DNA of 64,000 nucleotides from Hexactinellida sp. DTS-2022 (Eukaryota > Porifera > Hexactinellida). Numbering within the stretch: position 1 is the stretch's first letter; each line of letters begins with the position of its first letter. Below are positions 236-48,624 of this stretch, one piece after another. The stretch covers positions 2,049,042-2,113,041 of the forward strand of contig JAPNXP010000010.1 of the NCBI GenBank assembly GCA_028753945.1, in the 5' to 3' direction. The notes below the pieces were generated by a model. It saw nothing but the letters and a program-made list of their open reading frames with translations. It was not told the origin of the DNA and searched no databases. A program made the translations under genes and the position numbers.

Positions 236-3016
236 ATGAATAATAAGCAAGGATTAATATCCTTAAATACTCACTCATCGATAAGATCTGCTACTGAAGA
301 ATTTATAAAACAATACGAAGTTCCGGATCAAGTAATATAACCGGATCAAAGTAATATAACCAATAATCATGGATGAATAATAAAATGTTGTTAACAAACC
401 AAAAATAATATTTTGACTGAATTATCATTAAATGTCTAGAACCACGTTTAGGAGGCTACATACATCATTTTCAATGATGCCATTCAATTCCCAGCTATCA
501 ATAACCTATATGTCAATAATACTTCATGAATGGCTATCTGCTATTAAAATGCCTATTTCCCCTAAATTGTCATTCTCGCCCACTGTGGGCTTCAGGTTCC
601 TATTCGAGAAGATATATCTCAGGTTTATGAACAATATCATGATTCACTTGGTCACCCTGGGATAAATTCCACTCTTCAAGCAATCAAGCAGAGATACACT
701 TGGGCCGGGATGTATATATGTGGATATTACCAATTATGTAAGTAATTTTGAATGAATTACGATTTTGCATCTTGTTTATCTCGGAAACATCTTTAATTAA
801 CTTCGCAGCAATTGCTGAAAATCCTCATGATACATTAGTCAACAAACAGCTGTGCTACCACCTAATCCTCAAAAGAAGCTGCAACCTATTCCACCTCCAA
901 ATGTTCCATGGAAACATATAGGGATGGATCTAATAAGCGATCTCCCTGAAACATCAGATGGCTACAAACACATTCTTGTTACTGTGTGTTGCCTTTCTAA
1001 GTACGTCGTCGCTCGAGCACTCAAAAATAAAACAACTATTGAGGTTCTAGGTCAATTGGAAGATATCTAGCTAGAGTTAGGAATACCCGATATCATTCAA
1101 CACGACCAAGGGAAGGAATTTACATCTAAGGTACTTGTGCTAGATTAATTAGAAGTGTATACAATAATATCTACATTTAGTAAAGTTCTAGTACCTAACT
1201 AACATATTTGATAATTATCATATTCCTAGATTTTTCAGGAGTTCCATCACAAATTGAATGTTCAAAATCGCAGTACTCGAGCATAACACCCAATGGCGAA
1301 TGGATTGGTTGAGGGAACTTGAGGCTCATAACAAAATACTGAAAACGTAAGATTTTTAGCATTTTAAATAATTAGTTTAGAGATTTATCTTTAATTATAA
1401 TTCAATGGAATCATCTTAATTACTCGGGAGACGGATTAGATTAATAACCGGTATTCTGCTTAATCGGCACAAATATTTAGAACGGATTCTTATCTTTGAA
1501 TTATCTTCGTTAATTGGGACTCCACATCTTAACTGAGAGAAAAGTATGCTCCCGAGGTGTCCCAATTAAGCAGCTTCCTATGCAATAGTAATTATTTCCC
1601 TAGTAAGTTGAACAAGATGCACATTCAGTGTGGAAAGGATTGGACTCAACTCCTAAAATCCGCTGTGCTTTGCATGAACTCAACGTTCAAAAAGTCTCAT
1701 GGCACTACACCATTCAGAATTAAGTGGCTAGAGATTCTCGGTATGAAGAACTTGTCCCATCCGTCAGCAGTGTATCAGTGTCTGCAGAGGAGGATGTTGA
1801 TGAAGAAGAAACTATCTTTTCTCTTTGCGACTTTCTTGCTGAAAAAGATGAGGAAGACATTTTCTCTACCCCAACTGAACACCCAGATGATTCCATTGCT
1901 GCACTGACGGAATTTCGTGATACCACGTGCAAACTTGCTGGTAAATATTATCACTGAGCAACTGAAGCAAAAGAGGCAGTATGATAAAAAAGAGACTCAA
2001 AATAGGTTTGTTAGCTAGCACTATTAACTTCTTCTACGTAGGGAATTTCTATATAAAATGTTTCAAAATTTATTCATTTCATTGTAATAATTTGGCTTGT
2101 TAATTCACCAAGTATCTGAAATGTAGTTCGGAAAATAGATACATTCGAACGAGGCGCTGATCTAGGGGGGGTGGATGCCGGATGGGGTGGCTAGCCACCC
2201 CCTTAGCTCCCCATTAACAATATCCGAGTAAAGAAAAATTTAAGAAATATGTAGATAAAAAATATTTTTCGCAATGGTACCCACTGGGGGGCTTAGAGTG
2301 CACACCCCAGACCCCCAGCCAGGGGTTTATCTAGGTGCCTGGCCGGCACTTTTAGGTGCCGGCCAGGCATGAGTTGAGGTGAAAAAGTGCTTGAATTGCG
2401 ACTCGATTTAGGTGCCACGATGGCACTTAATTATGTGCCGGGTTTATGGCAGATTTTCTGGTTTCATAAATGCTTGGTTAAACAACTGTTTGTGCACCGT
2501 AGCAATTTACCTCCTTAAAATAGTGCCGCATCATTGAATTATACTGATTATTTAATACGGCTAATACCTTAGGTTGCCGGAAAAATTATACCTCCATAAT
2601 AAAGTGCCAGCCACGAAAATCCTAGATAAACCCCTGCCCCCAGCTGAGTGATTACCACCCCCCTTCAAAAAACCCTGGATTAGCGCATGCGATCAATTTC
2701 GATCAAAGTACAATAATAAATTTAGTTCACTGCTTGGTGTTAACTTGACTGGATTGTAATTATATAGATCTGAGATACACGAGTGTGATGAAATTCTGTA
2801 TACTAACATGCCAAAATTAAAGAAAATGCCTAATTTTAATCAACAGGAGAAATATATCGTTCCATTTACTGTCTCACGGCTAACAGATAGCATGCCTTCA
2901 TTCCAAACACCAAAGGATTGAAAAAGGACAATAAAATTCCGATCGATCTAGTTCGACCTTACCATCAACGCGAGAATACCTTGAGTCGAACTACAACATC
3001 ACGTAAAAGAAAGTAG
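236..3016 (+). pseudogene. Decayed integrase-type element gene (KRBA2/Ginger/Gypsy-like integrase)
   Basis: Broken pieces of one integrase-type reading frame follow each other on the plus strand. A 34-residue ORF (236-340) may be its start. Around 610-720 sits a zinc-binding remnant (HDSLGH then TLQAIKQRYTWAGMY). The catalytic core follows at about 885-1130, with WKHIGMDLISDLP, then LGIPDIIQHDQGKEF; this supplies the first two acidic residues of the D,D-35-E fold. At 1228-1345 fragments of HHKLNVQNR and HPMANGLVEG carry the glutamate region. A helical tail (1615-1960, DWTQLLKSAVLCMNSTF) and a short end near 2930-3016 (IDLVRPYHQ) complete it. Stops, frameshifts and intron-like gaps make it non-functional, and a hAT MITE sits at 2320-2636. 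The integrase assignment is secure from motifs. Whether the parent was a Gypsy retrotransposon or a Ginger-like DNA transposon is undecided, because no gag or reverse transcriptase is visible beside it. Confidence 0.75.
2320..2636. mobile_element. hAT-type MITE with 8 bp target duplication
   Basis: A 317 bp non-coding element has inverted ends CAGGGGTTTATCTAGG and CCTAGATAAACCCCTG. It is flanked on both sides by the direct repeat CCCCCAGC (2312-2319 and 2637-2644). The 8 bp duplication and CAGGG terminus are typical of the hAT superfamily. The interior is rich in the word GTGCCGG and its complement. It lies inside the integrase-type element and so is younger than it. Confidence 0.88.
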
Positions 3017-3733
3017 GAAGTTTCTAAGGATCAGCCAGCAAGCAAGAAGCCACAAATGGTATTTAGATTTATTTCGGAATGAAATGTGATGACTACTAGT
3101 TGACGTATATATTACAAAATATTTCATCTCCTTTTAGGACAAACAGCAAGTGTTTGGATTCTCGAGGCAAGTAATACTTTCAAAACTTGATGAATTCAAG
3201 GTATTTAAAACACTTACTTGTCGTTTCGTAATCTTTACTGTAAACAGTGTTCAAACTACTTCAAAGCATACTCACAATTCGGTTTTTTTCACTATTTGCG
3301 ACAACAATGAATAATTAAGCAATGGTCTTTTATCTCCCTTAAAGGTAATTCTACGACGAAATGTACAGGAAAAACACCTTTATGACACCACTTCATGAAG
3401 AATTGCACAATAAGCTCCAAAATATCATGAGCACGTGCCAAACACTCTCATATTCAGTTTTCTTCATGATATTACTGAAGAAGCAATGGTAATAATTATA
3501 TTTGAAAATTATGTTTACTAGCAGGTAGTTACTACTAGATCATGCCTCATAATCAAATCTAATTTATTCCTAGAAAACAGAGATCAGGGAACAATTACTG
3601 AGTTGGACAACTGATCTCTACCCCGCGTTTGGAGACATTCTTGCAGCTAAATAGACCTTTAAAGTATTGTATGCACTGGTAAGTATAGTACAGTTATTAT
3701 TTGATATACAATCAAATTACAAATATTTGACAT

Positions 3734-11183: not shown

Positions 11184-11979
11184 GATAGAAATAAAAAAAA
11201 TATGGTTTAGATAAAAATATTCATCCCTGTGCTGGTCACACCGATTGCCAATAGGCAGACTCATTATCGCATGATGACGTAAGCATTAAAATTTCAAATA
11301 GTAAAATGACTATTTTAGGCCTATTTACGTTATAATCAATGTTAGAAGTACATAAACCATACACGAAAAGCAAAGCGGTTGGTGTTGGTTGTGTTCTGCC
11401 GCGAAGCCACCTGACAAGCGAAGCGAGCTAGTTTTCTAAGAAAATTGGAGTTTTCATCATCCAAAGTAGGGTTGGTTTACAATTAAAATCTTCAATATCT
11501 CAGAATCGTTTCTAATTTGTATATAACAAATATCAAAAATGTACAATACAGTAGATGTCGGATATACTAAGCACACCGGTTAAAAGAACATATCGGATAC
11601 AGGCGCGGCAAGTCCTTTAGGAAAGTGGTACGGCGGAGTATTTTACAATATTTGTATGTGGTCGGACGAGGCTGCACCAGGTATTCGTATATGTTCCAGC
11701 AACGCTGCACCAGCTATTTGAATATCATTCGGCTATTATTAATTCATTAAATCATTAAATTATCATTGAATTGTTAATTTAGGTGGTACAGCAAAGCTGA
11801 CCATCCTGAAAAGTGGTACGGCGCTCGCCGAACCAGCCGTACCGGGTATGCCGCCCCTGGGATAGCAAGTAGGCAATATAACCCGGGGAGGCAAAAAAAC
11901 CCGGCATGAAAAAAACGCCGATTTCAACTATACGTATATTAGAATAATATATACAAATCCATAACATTATGAAACTCAC

Positions 11980-12744
11980 TGCACCAAATTCCCCACTGCC
12001 AATTTCAACATGCAATTCAATTTGGTTTTTATAAATGAGTGGAATTCTTTTGCTAGATTTCATATCCTCATCTTTGAACCACTGTGAAACGTGAGAATAA
12101 TCACTAGTATTCTTGATTAAATTGGAAGTTATTTTTGGCAAACTAAGGTTCAACTCAGGCGATAGTAAAGATATACAATTAATTGAAGGTGGAATACATC
12201 GCTTGAATGGAGTTACAGCCTTTTTCAAAGTTGTAGGTAACCCATCCGAGAATATTGAATAATGAGATATCACAGAGGCTAAATTAGAAAAAATTGGACC
12301 ATCGTCAATATAAAACCATTGATCTGCTAAAGAAACAATAACAAAATGATAAGGTACTTTATTATCAACGAGAGAAAGAGCATAATATCCAACTCTCTTT
12401 GAGTTAGGGCGTACAAGAAAAAGTCCTTGAGAAAGACCGTTTTCTTCCAATAATGTATTAGCGTCTTCCCTGGAAAGATTTGAGTGGAGCCATTCCTGGC
12501 CAGTAGTTTTAGGGGAAGAACATTCAAATTCGAATTTCTCAAGTATACGTAAGATATCAATTTTATTATACCTTTCTGCTAGAGAATAAGGGATATCACC
12601 ATCAGGTGTACGGGGACGAGAAGGGGCACCAATGTTCAATAACATTTCAATAATTAAAGAATGGCCGTGAACAACAGCTTCATGCAAAGCTACCCATCCA
12701 GTGATAGAATTTCGATCTTGAACGTTTGCAAAGCCAGTTACAAT
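11980..12744 (-). CDS. SHARK-type tyrosine kinase, exon 3: ankyrin, second SH2, start of kinase domain
   Basis: A 765 bp exon (255 codons, phase 0) runs from acceptor ...TTGTATTAG to donor GTGAGT. It begins with ankyrin repeats (GWVALHEAVVHGHSLIIEML; DGDIPYSLAERYNK). A second SH2 domain follows: WLHSNLSREDANTLL, then the phosphotyrosine-binding strand GLFLVRPNS with its conserved Arg. A linker rich in Ser and Pro leads to the kinase domain, and the exon ends within the glycine loop (ELHVEIGSGEFGA). SHARK kinases act in the cytoplasm downstream of ITAM-bearing or epithelial receptors such as Draper in flies. It continues exon 2 without a phase break. The remaining kinase lobes (VAIK, HRDLAARN, DFG) are not visible at lower coordinates and are inferred to be off the left edge. 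Confidence 0.9.
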
Positions 12745-22949: not shown

Positions 22950-24085
22950 ACAGTAAATAAGCAATAACATTCAACCCGTCGAATGCACATATACAAATAT
23001 GGTGGGTATGAAAAACATAGACCAATATGTTTGGTATCAAGAATATTCAATATTTTGAATTTAATGGATGATTTAATTTATAATGATGCAATTAAATATC
23101 CAACAGGCGATCATTTCAAAGTATATTAAATATATACTAATTCTGACTATTTTAAGTTAATTTTAAGTTTCGGAGTTACTCTAGATGCAAGTTCCTAATT
23201 ATTTAAATTTTCTTTGTGAATGCATGTGCAACATTTGCGTCCGAAATGGGTCCCGAGTATGGGGGGGGCTCGGCGCATTTTGTAGATAGAGTCCATCTTC
23301 TGAGATGTTATAGGTGGGTGAATTCGTTAAGGATGCCAGGAATCAGTGTCCATAAGGATAATCAAGACTGACCAAATTAGCAATCAAGAAGTTCTGAAAA
23401 TAGAGATTACTATTATCAAAACTCAATTGTTTAGTATACGTGTGTGTTTGTTCATCCGAATTATATTAAAGAGACGGAGAAAATAATTTTATCTTAGATA
23501 TAGACTAACTTCCAATTGATATTATAGGCAAATAAGTATGCAGATATCGATTTATAATATGAATATTTATTGTTGTTGTTGACAAAAATAGGAAAATTAA
23601 TTAATTAAAATTAAAAATAAACTTAAAGGAAAGGTAGACAAGTGCGTATGCAGAACGAGTGTGAAGTTGGATTAGTATTCGACCAGGGTCACTCCAGTCA
23701 CATAATTTGACTCACTTTAGTTATCAGATTTGAATAAATTTATTATCATCCTAGAGAGGATATACGGAGGTTCATTGTAATATGATTTATTTTTAAAAAT
23801 TAATTTTCCAGTTAGTTATTTAAATCATACAATTAATTCAGGGTTGATATTTCATAAAAAATCACTATCTCAAAATTTGTTTACAATTCTTAAAATTTGT
23901 AATCATACTTTGGAGATAAGGAGGTTTATGTAATATAAATTTTATTAAAATTTCCAAAGATTTTTTTTGAGTTATAAACATTCGAACTTGAAGTTAGAAA
24001 AAGAGTGGAAGTGAAAGTCCATTGAGTGGGCTTAGTTCAAAGTGTCAATTCCTATCCAATGTCAAACTGAATATAATATATTTTG
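22950..24085. other. Intronic stretch with dispersed repeats, no supported gene
   Basis: SHARK intron 1. The part at 23410-23600 (AAACTCAATTGTTTAGTA, then ACTAACTTCCAATTGATAT) is a diverged relative of 37650-37880. A G run and GC-rich patch lie near 23250-23275. Nothing coding was seen. Confidence 0.5.
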
Positions 24086-24091
24086 GTACCA

Positions 24092-27000
24092 GAGGCATTC
24101 CATGTCAATTCATCGAGCCAAAAATATGACTATCACAGAATCATTCGAAACTTTACAACCTCAATACTTTTTGACAATAACCTGAAATTTTTGGATCGTA
24201 AACCCTTTAGGAAGCCAAGTTATGACACCTCTATGTTTTCCCTATTTTTGTCATATAGCTCTTCCTTCTTATTAGGCTTTTATTTCAAAGTTGAATAATT
24301 ATTCACTCAATGGTTATTTTGTTTACATATTCTTTTTCTAGGCTATATTAATACTGTAGATTCCGAATCTGATCTTGGAATAGCATTTAACAACCGTCTT
24401 CCCTATAAAATTTTGCTTTTCATCTAAGTATCTGACAATTTTTCCCTGCAAGTTTAAATCGTTGATGCAAAAAAGGGCCAAATTGGATTTGATCCAAACC
24501 TCACCAAAAGTTAGTCTATTAATGGATATCTAGTATATAAAAAATTTGAGAGTGATTTTTTGTTATAGCTTTTTTACATGACGAATAATGTCTGCGTATT
24601 CAACTTAAGAGAACAATATTTCGTTAGCAAATCATCCTATTTTGTTATTCACTCAAACTTGTATTACATTATGTATCATTACGTATATATTAATTGACTA
24701 AATGTTAGAAATATTCACAAGTCAAAGATGATATGGCATTGATTTATATTCAAGTACCTAAATATCTATTTCTACTGTATTCTATCCAATAAATGTCAAA
24801 TATGTATAATCATAGCAACCTAGCGGTATTAGATATGTATTTGATTGTTTGATAAATCAACTATTCAACACAACTATTAGATTACTTTATTAGTATAATT
24901 GATATGTTTTATCCGAAATACGTACATAGATATTTCTTAAAATGCATAGTAACGTAGCAACACAAGATGGAGATAATTATTCTTTACTTATTGTCATATA
25001 TATACTAGTATACGTATATAAATAATCACCTTTCAATTAATAGTTATTTTGATATTAGTCTATCTAATAAATACTACAAAAATCATCTAATTATATATTG
25101 CAAACTTCAATAATGGCATCAGGAACATTTCTACTAGGAAGTTGTACAATGGGAAATCTGAAGGATAATGAGTGTCATTTGACAATTTTTTCCAAAGTGA
25201 AAGAGCTTAAGAACTTCTCTGATTTACTTCCAAGTGATCAAGTATTGATACGTTTACGTACAGAGTTAAATTCAGCACCACTTATCAACATTTGTGAACA
25301 TCACTTCGCCACCTATATAACTCGATATGCTAAACAACAGAAAACATGTTCAGACCTTTTTCGGATACCACAATAAATCAATATATTTATCTAAAGGTTA
25401 GATTTTTTCTTGTGTCAATATGAGAAATTAGTATATGACATGTATATATTGAAATTCATATTTCTGATTGGTTAGGAGAAGGGAAAGAAATAAGTTTGGA
25501 CGAATCAACAAATTAGGAGATATATTACACACCACGATAATCCCTGGGAAAAAATTGTGCATCAGATGTAAAATTCGCATGTATGAGATGATCAGGGATA
25601 ATGAACAAATGTCTAACGAGACATCCACTTGTATAACGCAGGACTTTAATTCCCCTGATATTGAGATACAAAGTATTTCAAAAGGATTTGCTAGGCAAGA
25701 AAAGCTAGTTAAATTCAACACAACACTTGAGCTACACGATTTAACACCTGCCTCCAAACTACCAAGGTGAATATCTTTCTATTGAATTCAAGTTTGTAAT
25801 TTGTAATACACAATTATTAATTGAAATAACTGAAATTTAGGGAAAATAGAGACATAAAGAGAAAATTAGACACTCTATATGAACAATACTACTCTCCTGT
25901 TCAAAGCAGTGAAATAAAAGAAAAGCAGCTAATTTTGATAATTTAATGGAAATGATAAAGCAAAAGATACATGGTTCTGTGGATATAAAAACGCGACTTC
26001 AATTACTAACTATTGTACCAAGTAACTGGTCCATCAGTAAAGTTCAGGAATATTTCCAGGTAGGAGATATTCTTGATATTTTTTGTTTTTGAAACATATT
26101 TAGCATAAATTGATACAAAATATTTTGTAATTAACTTTAAATTAAAAACATAACACAATCATGTATTGGGGTAATAGGTTTAAGATGAGTTAAACAATCT
26201 ATGACTGAATCCACAAAAAATAGGTAACAGAATATCAAGCACGACAATCCAAGACATTATTCAATGAAAAGGGCATTTTATCTTTCCCACAACCCAAGAA
26301 GGGAAAGCCACTGCCGGAAATAATTCAAGAAGCAACACTAATGTTCTTTGAAGACTTAGAATATTCTCGTGAAATGCCGGGTATGTATTTAGACGTAACT
26401 TTGAATAGCATAATACAAAACCTAAGTGACATTAAAAATATTAATTCCTACATTTTGAAATATGTTATACTAATTTCAAAGTGTGGGTGGCTGGTTATTC
26501 ACCTAAGCCACCCTTCCCCCTGGATCAGACCCTATCATTATATTTATAAATATTTTTAGGCCAAAATGATGTTGTTAGTGTTGGAAGAAAGCAATATAAA
26601 CAAAAAAGATTGCTCCTACTGAATTTAAAAGAACAATATACTTGCAATTTTTAGAGAGATTCGAGAACCAACCAGAGGTATTATTAGTGGGATGTGTACA
26701 TGTTCTCATTGTTTTTACTGTGCCGACTATACTATATTATAGTGGCCCAGTTCTAACTGTTGGAAAATATTTAGGTTAAGATCGGCTTCTCAAAATTTTG
26801 CTCTTTACGCCCAAAATGGTGTATCTTACCCGGCTCAAGTGGCACCCATTCTGTGTGTGTATGCATTATTCATCAAAATGTAAAGTTACTAGTTGATGCT
26901 GTTCAGATAAAGGAAAATATATAGACCTGATGAAATACGTTGTATGTTCAACAGAAAGTCGACAATGCATGATACACAGGTGTTTTCAATTAATTTCCCG

Positions 27001-29272
27001 AGAACCTTGAACTAAACGTTTCGTTTATGTATACTTACACTCTCTAATTCAAAATATGCAATATTTAGGTGTGAGAGATGTCCTAGTAATGCTAGTATAG
27101 AAAATCTTAGAAATTATTTGTATGATTCTCTTGAAAATCATTCAGAATCGGAGATCATTTTTCAACAATGGGTAGCGACAGATCGGACTTCACTCCTATC
27201 TGATTTAGATTCTATTCATGAATAAATTGATATGGTTGTAAACTCAATTGATAAACTCACTTCACATTCATACATTGCCAAAGCACAATCAAACTATCTT
27301 AAAAAGAGAAAAGAGAATATTGATAATACTTGCATTATTTTTTTGGGCGACTTCGCAGAAAACTTTACATTTGTTGTACAAGATGAAGTCCAAAGTTATC
27401 ATTGGTCTAAGGAACAAGCGATTCTCCCCCCAATTGTAATATATTTTGATGATAATGGGATAATTAAGCATAAATCATTCTGCTTTATTTCTGATGAATT
27501 GCGCCATGATGTCCTTATGGTTTATCTAATTCAAAAAATATTTCTGGACTATATTAAAAAAATTCTCCCTAATGTCTCCAAAATTGAGTACTTTTCCGAT
27601 GGATGCGCAGACAATACAAGAATAAATACAATTTTGCTAATTTGTGTATGCATAAACATGACTTTGGGTTTGATGCAGAGTGGAATTTTTTCGCAACTGC
27701 ACATGGAAAGTCTCCATGTGATGGTATTGGAGGCAATATCAAACGTATTACAGCGATAGAAAGTCTAAAACGAATCAACCATAACCAAATTCTACATCCT
27801 AAAGAAATGTATATGTTTTGCAAACAACATTTTAGCAACATCACATTCTCTTACATTTCTAAGGAATAAATCAGTGAGATACGAGCTAATTTACAAAGAA
27901 GATATTCCTATGCTAATGGAATACCAAGAACAAGAAGTTACCATCGATTTAAACCAATTGGTTCTTCAATTCTCGAGATTATGCGAACAAGTGAGCAGGA
28001 TGATTGTCCTTCAACATTTAATTTGGATAATGCTGATGAGGAAAAACTTTCATTAAATCTCATTGGAAGTTATGTTCCATGCATCTTTGAAAGTAATTGG
28101 TGGATTGGTATGGTTGAAGAGGTATCTGAAGATCAATTAGATGCAGAAATTAAATTGATGCAGTTCAATCCAGGAACTAAAACCTTCAGATGGCCCACTA
28201 AGGAAGACAAATGTTGGATTCCTTGCAACAATATCTTGACTATGATAAAGACACCATCACCATTATCCGAAAATATACGTCATTATACCATTACGAAAGA
28301 GGAGTTAAGTATAATTCTCAAGAAATGGAAAAATTGGAAGAGTAAATGATAAAAATTGAGAATTAGGTTATTGTGTTTACAAATATTTGATAAGTTTGTA
28401 TACTATATGTTTTTTGTTACAGAAAATAAATCCAGTTGAGATTGGTGTAAAATGATTTCAAACTGGCCCACTACATAGTAGTCGGCACAATAAAATAACG
28501 TAACTAAAACAGTTTACAAATATATAAAAGGAAATTGTTGTCAAAAATGTATCAGTACCGTATTTACTCGAATAGCCCGAGTGATTATTAATCTTTAGCC
28601 TTCCTATAGAGCTAAACTTGAGTAAAGCTACTATTTGCTATTTAAAGAAATACATTACATAAAGTTTCTAACATTTAATATAATAATATATATTGTAATA
28701 CAAGTTTGAGTGGATAATAAAATAAGGTGATTTGCTAACGAAATATTGTTCTCTTAAGTTGAATACGCAGACAATATTCGTCATGTAAAAAAGCAATAAC
28801 AAAAAATCACTCTCCAAATTTTTTATATACTAGATATCCATTGATAGACTAACTTTTGGTGAGGTTTGGATCAAATCCAATTTGGCCCTTTTTTTGTATC
28901 AACGATTTAAACTTGCAGGGAAAAATTGTCAGATACTTAGATGAAAAGCAAAATTTTATAGGGAAGACGGTTGTTAAATGCTATTCCAAGATCAGATTCG
29001 GAATCTACAGTATTAATATAGCCTAGAAAAAGAATATGTAAACAAAATAACCATTGAGTGAATAATTATTCAACTTTGAAATAAAAGCCTAATAAGAAGG
29101 AAGAGCTATATGACAAAAATAGGGAAAACATAGAGGTGTCATAACTTGGCTTCCTAAAGGGTTTACGATCCAAAAATTTCAGGTTATTGTCAAAAAGTAT
29201 TGAGGTTGTAAAGTTTCGAATGATTCTGTGATAGTCATATTTTTGGCTCGATGAATTGACATGGAATGCCTC
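24092..29272 (+). mobile_element. 5.2 kb DNA transposon-like element with ~600 bp terminal inverted repeats, superfamily unassigned
   Basis: The outer ends are GAGGCATTCCATGTCAATTC and its inverse. The left arm (24092 to about 24700) and right arm (about 28670-29272) match at roughly 95% or better over about 600 bp, including small indels. Between them lies one multi-exon gene reading rightwards. The near-identical arms around a transposase-like gene indicate a cut-and-paste element. No convincing target duplication was found: ACCA versus ATCA at the flanks is only 3 of 4. It lies in the 36 kb SHARK intron. Confidence 0.8.
25113..28349 (+). pseudogene. Unassigned transposase-like gene (zinc finger plus DFAEN/SDG/HGK core), near-intact
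   Basis: Exons are read from coding runs and splice-like borders. 25113-25376 contains a Cys/His-rich part (ICEHHFATYITRYAKQQKTC). 25468-25766 has PGKKLCIRCK. About 25841-26059 ends in VPSNWSISKVQEYFQ, followed by about 26224-26380, 26560-26640 and 27070-28349. The core shows three conserved acidic blocks. LGDFAENFTF has Asp at 27349-27351. YFSDG has Asp at 27598-27600. DAEWNFFATAHGKSPCDG has Glu at 27678-27680. The spacing is compatible with an RNase H-like D/D/E nuclease. The C-terminal part (27981-28349) looks like a separate small domain (YVPCIFESNWWIGMVEEV). One stop before 27232, a frameshift near 27601 and another near 27869 break it. Proteins with these blocks are familiar to me as uncharacterised invertebrate proteins, but I cannot name a transposon superfamily. 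Confidence 0.6.
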
Positions 29273-29878
29273 ATCATTCGTTAGAGGAGACAAGGAGGTT
29301 TACCTCAATGCCATTAGATTCTCGAATATTCCCTATATAACAGACAAATAAGACTTTTAAAATGGTGTAAATCTATGTTTTTATTGCTTTCTCTTTTTTC
29401 AAACTTTCAGCTCAATTTTCCGAGATAAAATACAATCAGAATCGATTCAAACTTTATAGGTACTTTTTCTGATATAATATTATTCAATCCCCCGAAAAAA
29501 AACAGGGGTCGCTAGTCATTCGTTTAGTGGTTAAACATTAATTAACTAATTTTCATACGACAAGTTATAAGAGGCAAGCTCATAATAACTATAAACCTAT
29601 TCCCCTAAACAGTAATTTATCACAAGTCGAATTTGCGCACACAATCGATTGGGATTTGGCTGTTGCGCCTATAGGCTATTCTCAGAATATACAAGTTTTT
29701 CTTAAGAATAGAAATAGATTTCCAACTTTACACTATTTTGTTGTCATTATTTTTTTATCTTTATCAATGTTTTCACATTTCTTCTTCTACTTCTATTTCT
29801 TCTCCCTAATTCTTTTAGTTCTCTTCTACAATTCATTCTTGAGTAATAACTTCATTTGTTCTCAGTAAATGATTTCTA

Positions 29879-30187
29879 TTGAATTGTGGCGTGCACGCAT
29901 CGGTTTGCATTGTATCCGCAAATGCAATAATCATAATCTATCAACCACAGACAAAATTGATTCATCTGTTTCACTCATCTCGATTATCGGCTCATATTGC
30001 TTGTATAATAGCCATTCTACTAGTTATTGGCGGCATCGAGATCAATCCTGGGCCTATCACCCCAACTCAAGATAATCGTCACAAGCAAGGTACCATATTT
30101 CCCCGAATAAGCGTCCCGGAGCTTATTGTTTTCGTGGGCCAAAATTATCCTGAAATTTTTGAGAAAAATCTGGAATATAATATTTAG
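29879..30187 (+). CDS. N-terminal ORF with a 2A-like NPGP peptide
   Basis: A 102-residue frame contains a hydrophobic stretch (AHIACIIAILLVIGG) followed by IEINPGP, codons 30035-30055. This resembles the ribosome-skipping 2A consensus D-(V/I)-E-x-N-P-G-P, with Gly in place of the usual Asp. 2A-like sequences near the N terminus are known in several invertebrate and trypanosome retrotransposons. Here the frame ends shortly after, inside a MITE-like insertion (30089-30341). It may have been the start of the frame that resumes at 30298. Whether skipping occurs is untested. Confidence 0.45.
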   Translation: MNCGVHASVCIVSANAIIIIYQPQTKLIHLFHSSRLSAHIACIIAILLVIGGIEINPGPITPTQDNRHKQGTIFPRISVPELIVFVGQNYPEIFEKNLEYNI

Positions 30188-30341
30188 GTGGGTTCTAAAT
30201 TCTAATGGTTTCCACCTACCGTATAACTACCGAAGTTTCCAAAATCAACGGAATTAAATTACAGTAATCAACTACGTGTATAAATCTTATCATACCAATG
30301 TTATTTTTATTGACCGGGCGCATATTCGGGGAAATTCGGCA
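30089..30341. mobile_element. Small inverted-repeat element
   Basis: The ends ACCATATTTCCCCGAATAAG and (inverted) CCGAATTTCCCCGAATATG bound about 250 bp. The end sequence resembles CCGTATTTACTCGAATAG seen at 28557, 61577 and 62841, so it is a dispersed family. No clear target duplication. Confidence 0.55.
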
Positions 30342-30828
30342 ATTTGATTTGATATACGTTATGAATAAGGATAAACTTTATTGTTATTTTTTAGAACTAC
30401 TAGCAGCAGAGATAAACTATATTATCGACGCACTGCTCTCCACAACACTAACATTTGAACAATTGATCCAATCCCTGTCTGTCAGCCACAGTTCGCCTAG
30501 TTCTATTTGGGGTTCGATTTGTAAGAAGGTTTACTCGTGTAACAAGCCTGTCGAGAGACACAGCTTGTACTTGAAATGGAGAAAGAACTCTCATAACATA
30601 AGAACCCTGGACGTGAGTTGTAGTCTTAGAAACTTAACTATTCAGAGGAGAGCATCATTGGTAACTTCCACTATTCTTAAGGAAGAAAGTTTAAGTGTAG
30701 CTGCGTGTTCTGATTTATTTTCGGCACTCATTTTAGATTTAAGAAAACTTGAATTTGATTTAGTTGACGATAAACTTCTTATTGTGTGGGCATCTTCTGC
30801 ACCGACCAAGCTATGTATAAACGGTTGA
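30298..30828 (+). CDS. Unassigned ORF, possible upstream part of the LDATG-type gene
   Basis: A 176-residue frame without low complexity contains CKKVYSCNKPVERHSLYLKW, a basic aromatic stretch. I do not recognise a domain with confidence. Its place between the 2A-like ORF and the LDATG-type DDE frames (33001 onward), on the same strand, suggests they were exons or parts of one transposon gene, later split by insertions at about 31130-32940. This is inference from position only. Confidence 0.35.
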   Translation: MLFLLTGRIFGEIRQFDLIYVMNKDKLYCYFLELLAAEINYIIDALLSTTLTFEQLIQSLSVSHSSPSSIWGSICKKVYSCNKPVERHSLYLKWRKNSHNIRTLDVSCSLRNLTIQRRASLVTSTILKEESLSVAACSDLFSALILDLRKLEFDLVDDKLLIVWASSAPTKLCING

Positions 30829-31109
30829 AGAGAGATTCTCAGACTACAATTCTTAGTTATCTAAATAGTGTGGTCATGATGTGTATTATATGTTCAATAC
30901 GTACAACTGAATGTCAGCTATGGGTAGACGGCGCTATGTTTTATGGAATAACTTCTCCACAAAATATTTCTGTTTTTTACAATTCGAGAAACTTGCTATT
31001 CTGATGAGTATTTTGATTTTATTCCCACGATAGTATGTACTATTGTAAAAGTTCTGTGGAATGTACTCCTTTAGTGGTTTTGTTGTTTGTCTGAAGTACA
31101 GCTTGAAAG

Positions 31110-31680
31110 TAGTTTCTTGTAACAAATGCACAGTATGGAACCATGGCGTAATAGGTAAAAATTTGACATATCCAAATCCTAATTTAACTGTGTACATTCG
31201 ATTCTATAATGTTGAACGAATAGAGAAATGTTATTGACATCCACCTGGTTATAGTGGTTAAATATATCATGCCTACACAAAGTCTCAAAGTTATGCATAA
31301 AATTTGAAAACTAAATTTCTGAAAAACCACAAATATCTATTGTTAGCCAACGTTGCTATATTGAATTATGCTTGATCCTTTGGTAATTCAAACATACTAT
31401 ATGTGTATTCTTATACATCATTTGATAGATTTTAACTAGTTTTCAAACTGAACTAACAATGTGATTATTTTTTATGAATTTTCTTTTCGGGCAATTTTAT
31501 TAATAACTTCCTGCATTGTGGCAAATATTCCAACTGTCCGATCTTAGAATGCAAACAATTGCGAGCTGAATTGTTTACGTTTTTATATTGTCTATTTATC
31601 TAAGCTCCGATTTAAAACATTTCTACGCCCGCCCAAAGGCGCCCAAATATATTTTCGAGCTAAAGTAAAAGTTGGTCAAG
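31110..31680. repeat. Dispersed repeat, inverse of 52165-52715
   Basis: About 560 bp match the inverse of 52165-52715, which lies directly upstream of the hAT transposase fragment at 51220-52124. Shared words include CAAAGTCTCAAAGTTATGC and TTCTACGCCCGCCCAAAGG. It is therefore probably the terminal region of that hAT family. Its outer end (CACAGTATGGAACCATGG) has a rough inverse near 32907-32938, hinting at a 1.8 kb element. Confidence 0.65.
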
Positions 31681-43818: not shown

Positions 43819-46601
43819 TAATTAAAAGTACAAGTGTTGATTATGCAATCTGAACCTCGTTATTGAAATTTTCCTTAGTTTGACCTCAAATACACCTTAT
43901 TTAATTAACCGTGTAGGTAATAATTGATTAACAAGGTTCCACTTCAACTGTATTTTTGTATAAATCTAGATATGCATACTCCACTTTAAAGAAGAAGATA
44001 TCGAAAAATCAATAAGATATTTTGATGGAAGTAAATATGTTGATTAACCTCGCAAAAAATATGCCGTATCTAAGTCTGCGATACCATGCATTTTCCCAAA
44101 CTGTCCCAGCTACCTCTCTGACACCAGTGAAAGACCGAGGAGATTCTCAAGAGAACAGAAAGAAGTAACCCTGACTGAAACAGCAATGAAACTAAGTAGA
44201 GAAGAGAGTGCAACCACAACAGCTAAGTTTTCAATTTCGTTAATTGCTGATATTATTGATAAATTGTAGTACATTGACCTCTCCAATGGTTGGACTAGTC
44301 ATATTGCGGATTTATACTCCATTATTTTCCTTAAGATCCTAGTTAAGGATAGTCAACCTCATATTGAAGCATCGCTTACGATAAAATCTGATTTATATAT
44401 CACGGCCTTTCTTCAACAAAATTATCAAATAGATCTTTCCATGAAGCAAGTTAGTGACATCCGTCAAATTGAGAACCTGTTATTAGAAATAGATTGTTTA
44501 CTTAGGCCTAAGATTAATCAAAGTTCAGAAACACCACAACCCACTGTTACAACCTGCCTAGAAAATGCCATTAGTAATTTGGAACACGTTATTAAATTAC
44601 TAGATCATGATGATTTAGATTTCGCTGCCGACGAAGCTATAAATGATAACCTCTTTAATTCATCAAAAATAGGGTTTCATTTTTTACTTGACCAATTGAA
44701 ATCTTTGAAAGTTTCCAAATTTGGGCGCCGATATAGTGTTTTAACTCAGGTTTTTTCCCTTAAGGTGCATGGTATTTCACTAGCTTGTTACCGTCTTATT
44801 CAATCTTCGAATTGTTTAACTCTACCACATGAGCGTAATATCCTCAAAATAAAAAATTATGTCGGTTTAGATAACGATTATCTAAATGTTCTTAAAGAGT
44901 TTTCATCCTCATTTAATGACAGCGAGCGACAGGTCATACTTCAAATGGACGAAGTACACATACGTAGTGATGCCAGCTGTAAAGGTGGTAAAATAATAGG
45001 CTCTATCGACCATCCGGAAGATCCACCTACAACTGTGTTTTGTATGACAAAATTTTCCACAATTGTAAGTCTAGTCCCTCTCGGTTCTAGCTCTGCTACG
45101 GCTCTTTTTCCCATTGTTACAAAACTATCTCTGATATCGAAAGATGTAATATATATGTTGACGCAATATACACTGATAACTACCCACTAAATGTCAGTTT
45201 ATTTAAACTTTTTTCAGCAGACCAAAAATGCCCATAGTAAAACATCCATGTGATCCAATCAGAGATCTAATTTTATTCTTTGACATTGTGCATATTATTA
45301 AGTCTGTTAGGAACAATTGGCTCAATTTAAAAGACTACGAAAAGGTTTTATCTTCCCAAAATTTATTGATCGCAAGCCTCATGACTACACACATACCGAA
45401 AATATACCTCCTAGTAACCTCAGAGTTTCCATCAATACATCAGAACTTGATATCGATACCAGTTCATTTTCTAATTCTATGTACCCTACCATCTGCTATT
45501 CAGCCTTTCAGGACATAAGAACTTTATTCAATTCGGATAAGTGCAATTTATTCAAGCGTGCTCCCAGATTAACATCAAAAGCCTGTAAGCCATCTAGCCT
45601 GGAAAGACAAAATGTCAATTTAGCACTTAGGGTTTTTCACGAATCAACATCAGCGGGACTGTTAGCATATAATTTGAAAAAGAACATTGTAGACAAAACC
45701 CAAACTGTTGAATTTTTGAAATTAATCAATGATGTTTGGAAAATGAGTAATGTGAACTGGGTAGGGAAGAATATTCGTTTTAATGACGAAATGTCTGCAC
45801 CCTTATGTTTGAAAGACTCGCGATTATTGTTTTTCAATACTTTGTTCTTGGTTAGAGTGCTGGAGAGCTCTTCCTACAGCGAAAGGAAAATTATCTCCTC
45901 AAACTTTTAAAAGTTTTATACATACCTGCAAGGCATTACCTTTACAACTCGAATTGATTTGTACAAAATATGGGTTCAAATACCTTCTGACATCAAGGAT
46001 ACAAAACGATGCTTTAGAACACCATTTTGGTTTGTACCTGCAAATGTCAGGTTCACAGTATCACATTTCATACTGTCAAATCCAGGAGTCTGAGCGCCGG
46101 CTTCAGCTTTCTAATATTCTAAAATTGTTTCAGATCAGAAGAGAATCTGATACTATTGAGAGACCTACCAGTCTATTAGAGTATTTAAGTACATTTTTTC
46201 ACTCAAATGACGATGAACATGCTGCTAGTTTTGATGTAGATTCCTATTTGTCAACCTTAAATGAAATCAGCCTTCCGGAAATGGCAGCATCTCAAGTTGA
46301 GTGCCTCGCGTTTGTCGCTGGTTATGCTGCATTTTCTTATCTCAAAAAATCTAGCAATTGTATATTGTGCAGGAAATTTCTGTGTACTGAAAAATCCTTA
46401 CAAGTGAATGATGACATGGGCAGTCAGTCTATACTGATAGAATTGTTAGATAGGGGTTCTCTCAAATATCCATCGAGCAATGTTCTTGAATGCATTAAGG
46501 TCATTTTTGATATATTTAGCAAAATTGACAGTCATAGGGAACAATTTGACAACTTTTACTCTGGCTCTTCCCCGTGCAAAACTCGTTCAACTGGCATGGG
46601 G

Positions 46602-48624
46602 GGGATACCGACTTTTCGGTACACGACAATTCGGTACGAACAATTCGGTACACGACAATTCGGTACATGGACTAGTCGGTACACACCGTAAATTACTATT
46701 CAGTATCGAGTAAACATAAACTTGATAGAAAGTTTCTATTTTTAAAAAAGATGTTGATTATTTGAACCTTGGGTGAGAACCTGTAAATAGGAACTAATTA
46801 GCGCCTTGTTGACTTGTTCACATGCAAACCTTAAATGAAAATAATTTATGTCAAAAGAAAATATGTCAATAGTCTAAGTCTAGTATAAACAATATGTCCC
46901 CAAATATATAAATATAAGTATATTTACATAATACATTAAACATTATCGAATCAATATGTATCGACTCATCAAATCAAGTAGGGGGGATTTAAGCTCACAG
47001 AAGGGGGCTATATTTACGATAAGTAGAGAGTTGGTGGAGAAATTACACATTGGCAATGTGAGAAGAAATCAGAATGTAAAGCAAGGCTACACACCAAAGA
47101 GGATCAGATAGTGAGACGAACAAATGAGCATCTCCACGGTCCAGACAACACAAAGGTCAGCTGTTTCGAAACAAAAATTGGAATCAAAAGGAGAGCGCAG
47201 ACTACTCATGAGACTTCACATCACATTATAGGCGAAAATGTATTGGAACTTTCTGAGGGAACATCTGCTAAACTACCAAAATTGGATAGTCTGAAACGTA
47301 CTATTCAGCTCCAGCGGGAAAAGGACAATGCCGCTCCAGCTCAACCGACGAGTTTAGAAGAGCTTGTAATTCCTTTGGAATATACAAAAACTGGGAAGGG
47401 AGATATTTTTTACTATATGACTCCGGGCCTCAACTCCATCGTATTCTAATTTTTGGGACACATCACAATATTGAAATGCTAGCGTCATCCCAGGTCTGGT
47501 TGGCTGACGGAACCTTCAAAACAGCACCGGCACTATTTGGACATGTTTACGTCATCCATGGATTTCGAGGAGGACCAGAACTTATTCAGGACGGCCACAT
47601 GCTACCAAGTTTATTCGCGTTACTACCGAATAAGACCCAAGATACATAATGAGGATGTGGCAACAAATTCAACTACTTTGTCCAAATGTACAACCGACTC
47701 ATATGTTAATGGATTTTGAACTGGCAGCAATAAAGAGTTTTCAAGTTTATTGGCCTAACACAAACGTAAAGGGTTGCTTTTTCCATCTGACCCAGAATAT
47801 ATGGAGAGAGGTACAAGCCGAATTTGCTCTCAAGATTCGCCTCTTGCCTGACCTTGCATATGCTTCTCCGTTTGATGTGCCCGAACTATTCGCAGATGTA
47901 GTACAACAACTCCCTATGCCTGCTGCACAAGGTCTGGTCTTATATTTCGAGCGAACATATATAGGACGTACTCTACCAGGTGGTACTTTTCGTGAGCCTC
48001 TCTTCCCAATATAATTTTGGAATCACCACCATAAAGTGCCACAAGGATTTCCAAGAACAACAAATTCGGTTGAAGCATGGCACCGTTCTTACAATGCTAC
48101 TGTCGGTTGCCATCATCCAAACATATGGAAATTTATAACTGCTCTAAAGAAAGAACAAGGACTTGTTGAAGTTAAACAAGCAAAATTTATTGCAGGTGAA
48201 AAACCTAACAAGAGACGCAAATATCGAAACAAAGAAATGGCTCTGAGGGATCTGGTTATGGGGTACCTCCACTGGCCAAAAATTGAACTTATTCGAGGAG
48301 TTGCTCATCAAATAGGAATGGAAACACACTAAACTAACCTCGTTAGTCTAATTCCATATATATTATATCATGAATACAAATAAATTAAAATAATTAACAA
48401 GGTTATGACATTTCAACGATACACAATTAATAGATTCCTGTAACTGCATAATACCACTATTAATGACTTTAGTAACTTTAAATAAACTATAACGCTCAGC
48501 ACGAATTGCTCCATTGAGTTTGGAAATGTACCGAATTGTCGTGTAACGAATAGTCCATGTACCGAATTGTCGTGTACCGAATTGTCGTGTACAGAATTGT
48601 CGTGTACCGAAAAGTCGGTATCCC
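46602..48624 (+). mobile_element. Mutator-like element (MULE), 2.0 kb, nested in P copy A
   Basis: The 21 bp ends GGGATACCGACTTTTCGGTA(C) and their inverse match perfectly. The direct repeat GGCATGGG flanks the element (46593-46600 and 48625-48632), or 9 bp with one mismatch. Subterminal iterons of ACGACAATTCGGTAC are present: five units at 46611-46687 and six inverse units at 48528-48618. Without the insertion, the P transposase frame reads through the target site. The element encodes its own transposase. Confidence 0.94.
47051..48332 (+). pseudogene. MULE transposase with FLYWCH-type finger, several breaks
   Basis: The frame from 47051 starts with a FLYWCH-like finger (WQCEKKSECKARLHT then NEHLHGPD). 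A conserved linker follows (LPKLDSLKRTIQ). The catalytic region reads VWLADGTFKTAPALF (about 47490-47535, first Asp) and MLMDFELAAIKSF (about 47703, second Asp), then GCFFHLTQN (Cys/His between second and third acidic sites). LVLYFERTYIGR (about 47940) has the likely catalytic Glu. The tail 48036-48332 contains NSVEAWHRSYNA. Frameshifts occur near 47404-47470 and 47640, and a stop near 48014. The enzyme would cut and paste the element by binding its terminal iterons. It is related to the GC-rich fragment at 13905. Confidence 0.88.

Follow-up and report, generated by a model that had tools for sequence, protein, structure and literature searches.

Do the long inverted arms that bound positions 24092-29272 of the window analysed here mark a mobile element and, if so, to which transposon superfamily does that element belong? 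The window is the whole stretch of DNA under study, 64,000 nt of the forward strand of Hexactinellida sp. DTS-2022 (assembly GCA_028753945.1, JAPNXP010000010.1:2,049,042-2,113,041), and the unit in question is a single element of 5,181 bp in which terminal inverted repeats (TIRs) of ~590 bp flank one multi-exon gene. The element is a real cut-and-paste DNA transposon, and its assignment as a new member of the Sola superfamily is the most likely one and reasonably probable, as judged by features that match the published description and not by sequence homology. The left TIR (24092-24681, + strand) starts with GAGGCATTCCATG, the right TIR lies at 28681-29272 on the − strand, and the same terminal sequence is found at both ends of the element. 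The two arms align without gaps over three main stretches, of 391 nt (99% identity), 80 nt (99%), and 143 nt (92%), with an extra 28-nt block at 86%, and 11 of 590 sites differ when the arms are aligned end to end. The near-identical inverted arms of about 600 bp around a single multi-exon gene, on which an earlier note had based its claim of a transposon, are thus real, as seen from the arm blocks and from coding matches to related proteins.

The insertion itself can be read from the flanking DNA. The 500-base flanks on the left and right each match about 40 or more other places in the genome; 40 of 151 left and 40 of 105 right candidates were scored, and these match counts are lower bounds. 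At 25 places, left and right flank matches adjoin on the same strand, and they overlap by exactly 4 bp at 24 of these, the left match at the remaining site ending 5 bases early. Ten of the 24 empty sites were fetched at base level, and all ten carry ATCA at the junction. In the window, the element is preceded by ACCA (24088-24091, + strand), which differs from ATCA by one substitution, and followed by ATCA (29273-29276, + strand); therefore, ATCA was duplicated by the element, and one copy has changed since. As the flanks are multicopy and have empty sites, the element is nested in another multicopy repeat, into which it inserted with a 4-bp duplication. This host repeat spans window positions 23655-24091 and 29273-31128 around the element. 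Copies of the left-flank repeat form 10 pairs that face each other 6.8-10.1 kb apart, which suggests that the host repeat is itself one arm of something larger.

The genome contains many related elements. A second full-length copy (hereafter the sister copy) lies on contig C11 at 11,059,755-11,064,965 and differs from the window copy by 137 mismatches over 5,164 compared sites, while a DNA search detects arm fragments at four further places, and a search with internal sequence adds others on C11. A stretch of the core protein matches 62 places in the genome, and several relatives carry arms of 526-853 bp with related ends. The genome contains 131 instances of the terminal motif GRGGAATTCCATGTCAA, with at most one mismatch allowed, compared with a single instance of the reversed control. 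From the first 100 of these 131 matches, 31 convergent terminus pairs spanning 1,278-7,624 bp were picked by eye, and 29 were fetched; together with the window element and the sister copy, they make up the 31 elements scored for target duplication. An exact 4-bp duplication is present in 26 of the 31, whereas shuffling of the right flanks over 10,000 rounds gives a mean of 1.2 exact duplications and a maximum of 7, and no match of 5-10 bp occurs at the true ends of any of the 31. The other two pairs, which are outside this count of elements, show TATA/TATA (L059) and TATA/TGTA (L061). The pair with the 7,624-bp span, on contig C16, has flanks without any match and may join the ends of two different elements, and five of the 31 spans measure 3,207-3,208 bp, a near-identity suggestive of a burst within a single non-autonomous family. 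The flanks of the 31 elements also show a symmetric target preference, with T four bases before the duplication in 21 of 31 and A four bases after it in 21 of 31. Empty sites, the 4-bp duplication, the second full-length copy, and the genome-wide termini together bear out the proposal of a transposon, and the comparison of the arms with their own genome, which the earlier note had suggested, together with that of the flanks, returned other copies, empty sites, and a target duplication alike.

The protein encoded between the arms belongs to a widespread family. A search with the core retrieves 871 related proteins, and the named matches of the protein searches include sponge, jellyfish, spider, sea spider, beetle, crinoid, fish, and frog; members are annotated, for example, as 'uncharacterized protein', and one relative is named Cc8L18.2 in UniRef. 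From VIA-align and predicted secondary structure, the conserved core is predicted to adopt an RNase H/integrase fold, in agreement with the RNase H-type core that had been proposed. The three acidic codons named in the earlier note (GAC 27349, GAT 27598, and GAG 27678) are all present, as is an additional GAT at 27720. Of the D/D/E reading attached to them, the first two residues are retained as putative catalytic residues, and the third is not supported: the column of 27678 has Glu in 31 of 40 relatives, whereas that of 27720 has Asp in 38 of 40 and opens the helix where the third catalytic residue belongs. From conservation and topology, the triad is likely D-D-D, and its putative members, all on the + strand, are the Asp codons of DFAEN (27349-27351), SDG (27598-27600), and HGKSPCDG (27720-27722), the last in place of Glu 27678. 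A second Asp just before 27720 (D639 of the model), kept in 40 of 40 relatives, speaks against this choice of third residue. No C/DxxH motif stands out by eye in the conserved columns of model residues 618-659.

How, then, should the element be classified? The view that it is no transposon, and that a segmental inverted duplication surrounds a host gene, draws on the enclosure of one gene by two arms, but it is contradicted by the sharp ends, the second full copy, and the 131 genome-wide termini, and is ruled out by the empty sites with their 4-bp duplication, so that its probability is negligible. The claimed mismatch to hAT, P, MULE, mariner, Kolobok, and piggyBac is upheld by the target duplication and the termini. 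Kolobok and piggyBac elements likewise duplicate 4 bp, but always TTAA, whereas the 4-mers vary here and TTAA is found in 0 of 31; Tc1/mariner elements duplicate TA. The P element generates an 8-bp target duplication. Lengths of 8 bp for hAT and 7-12 bp for MULE are given in PMC10741241, so that the hAT, P, and MULE range of 7-12 bp differs from the 4 bp seen here, where none of the 31 elements has a match of 5-10 bp at its true ends. A C/DxxH motif between the second D and the last acidic residue is described for hAT, P, MuDR, Kolobok, and Dada in PMC9587614, and these groups differ in this respect from the window family, in whose conserved columns none stands out. Ginger1 and Ginger2 resemble the element in their integrase-type core and 4-5 bp target duplication, but their ends are 5'-TG..CA-3' (PMC10741241) rather than 5'-GRGG..CCYC-3'. 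Retroviral integrases (ASV, HIV, and PFV) and Mos1/Metnase mariner show no sequence similarity detectable in a search of PDB sequences, and the window unit differs from them as a DNA element with long TIRs, without reverse transcriptase, and not TA-duplicating.

The Sola superfamily provides the closest fit. As described in PMC10741241, Sola has a DDD-transposase, 4-bp duplications, elements mostly of 2-9 kb, and TIRs of 11 to 1124 bp, and the element is placed there because its 4-bp target duplication, likely DDD-type triad, ~590-bp TIRs, and 5.2-kb length fall within these published ranges. The claim of an undescribed system is accordingly not sustained, as what was measured agrees with Sola as published, a comparison made by description only. 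Several points weigh against placing the element in Sola. The likeness was drawn from the published description and not from Sola sequences; Sola2 elements, which have AT-rich 4-bp duplications according to PMC3627910, are described there with short TIRs of 12-21 bp, as opposed to the ~590-bp arms found here; five of the 31 target duplications are inexact, four differing at one base (the window included) and one at three; Foldseek alone gives no match to the core at E ≤ 0.001; and a Pfam-A scan of 46 relatives finds no model at cut-off and no transposase family. The lack of a Pfam-A model, along with the lack of any sequence relative of the protein in the PDB, would also suit a distinct animal DNA transposon superfamily that is unnamed in print and Sola-like only in its triad and target duplication, and the core motif words are absent from the main text of the relevant papers, while the name Cc8L18.2 was not found in a literature search. 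All measured features nevertheless lie inside the Sola range as given in PMC10741241, and we consider a distinct superfamily rather unlikely. Similarly doubtful is the broader proposal of a pan-animal superfamily unnamed in print, in which a DDD core would follow a Cys/His cluster, a Tudor/SH3-type barrel would steer insertion, and the arms would undergo concerted evolution. Chapaev- and Academ-type groups also make 4-bp target duplications. Duplication length alone does not tell such catalogued superfamilies apart, but the structural fit and the likely DDD triad favour Sola, and no Pfam transposase family is found at cut-off, which makes an origin in one of them improbable.

With Sola kept as the most likely home of the element, the organization of its gene can be described. 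Coding blocks on the + strand between the arms match eight relatives (755-866 aa) block by block and in order, and the intron-like gaps between them have GT..AG-type edges at most junctions, the junction between exons 1 and 2 being uncertain. By tblastn with the relatives and by edge sequence, exon 1 (25114-25396, 3' edge uncertain) encodes the Cys/His-rich N terminus, exon 2 (25474-25766, 5' edge uncertain) carries a PGKKLCIRC block, and exon 3 (25840-26058) begins a helix-turn-helix-like region, which HTH_23 matches weakly in one of 46 relatives. Exon 4 (26224-26381) and exon 5 (26559-26677) follow, with edges that, as for exon 3, are approximate, and exon 6 (26775-26979) contains a conserved Cys/His cluster (HSVCVCIIHQN). 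Exon 7 (27069-28349), placed by tblastn, comprises the remainder of the Cys cluster, the RNase H-like core, and a C-terminal barrel, and ends with TGA at 28347-28349. A unit of ~45 bp within intron-like sequence of the element (about 26708-26756) recurs at dozens of places in the genome, and in locus L010 it forms a tandem array at 2882-3168 with a period of about 55-59 bp.

The gene in the window has decayed. Relative to its relatives, it carries TAA stops at 27223-27225 and 27867-27869, and its frame shifts between 27609 and 27612 and also near 26640, in exon 5; the sister copy is open across both stops and the 26640 region and has its own frame change near the SDG block. With at least two stops and at least two frame changes, the window copy is, on its reading frame, dead and not functional. 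Arm divergence within a copy is 1.9% in the window and 1.2% in the sister copy, and 3.4-4.9% between copies. The two window arms agree on a base absent from both sister arms at 17 sites, compared with one site that separates left arms from right arms; because transposition copies no arm from the other, this pattern means that the arms are homogenised within copies. The likeness of the arms, from which recent movement had been claimed, thus reflects within-copy homogenisation, and the lesions in the frame (at least four) and the mutated target duplication also run counter to that claim. Elsewhere, a pair of loci that hold an open frame of 755 aa shows 4 differences in 3,386 sites, and a further three loci show 12-19 in 3,270; such near-identical relatives are the better sign that the group has been active recently, although segmental copying can also give such likeness.

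A possible mechanism is as follows. In an intact transposase of the family, the Cys/His-rich and helix-turn-helix-like parts at the N terminus would bind the inverted repeats, and a DDD metal-ion site formed by the residues at 27349, 27598, and 27720 would excise the element, which would then be joined to target strands with a 4-bp stagger, while the C-terminal Tudor/SH3-like barrel may help to bind DNA or chromatin. Once the window copy had inserted, its gene decayed, and the arms may have stayed alike via gene conversion or hairpin-templated repair.

Two further features of the window lie apart from the element. An open frame on the minus strand at 11779-12744 encodes an SH2 domain (E = 1.5e-14) with a sub-threshold ankyrin repeat, and we take it to resemble the N-terminal region of a Shark-type kinase. 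Two long open frames at 44270-46691 are, to our eye, reminiscent of a THAP9/P-element transposase; a Pfam scan of these frames found nothing at E ≤ 0.001.

Naming this family, which occurs widely in animals and has no Pfam-A model in the copy used, would aid annotation. With its clean empty sites, its 4-bp duplications, and its near-identical relatives, the family lends itself to tests of a Sola-type DDD transposase, and the likeness of arms within copies warns against using arm identity to date DNA transposons.
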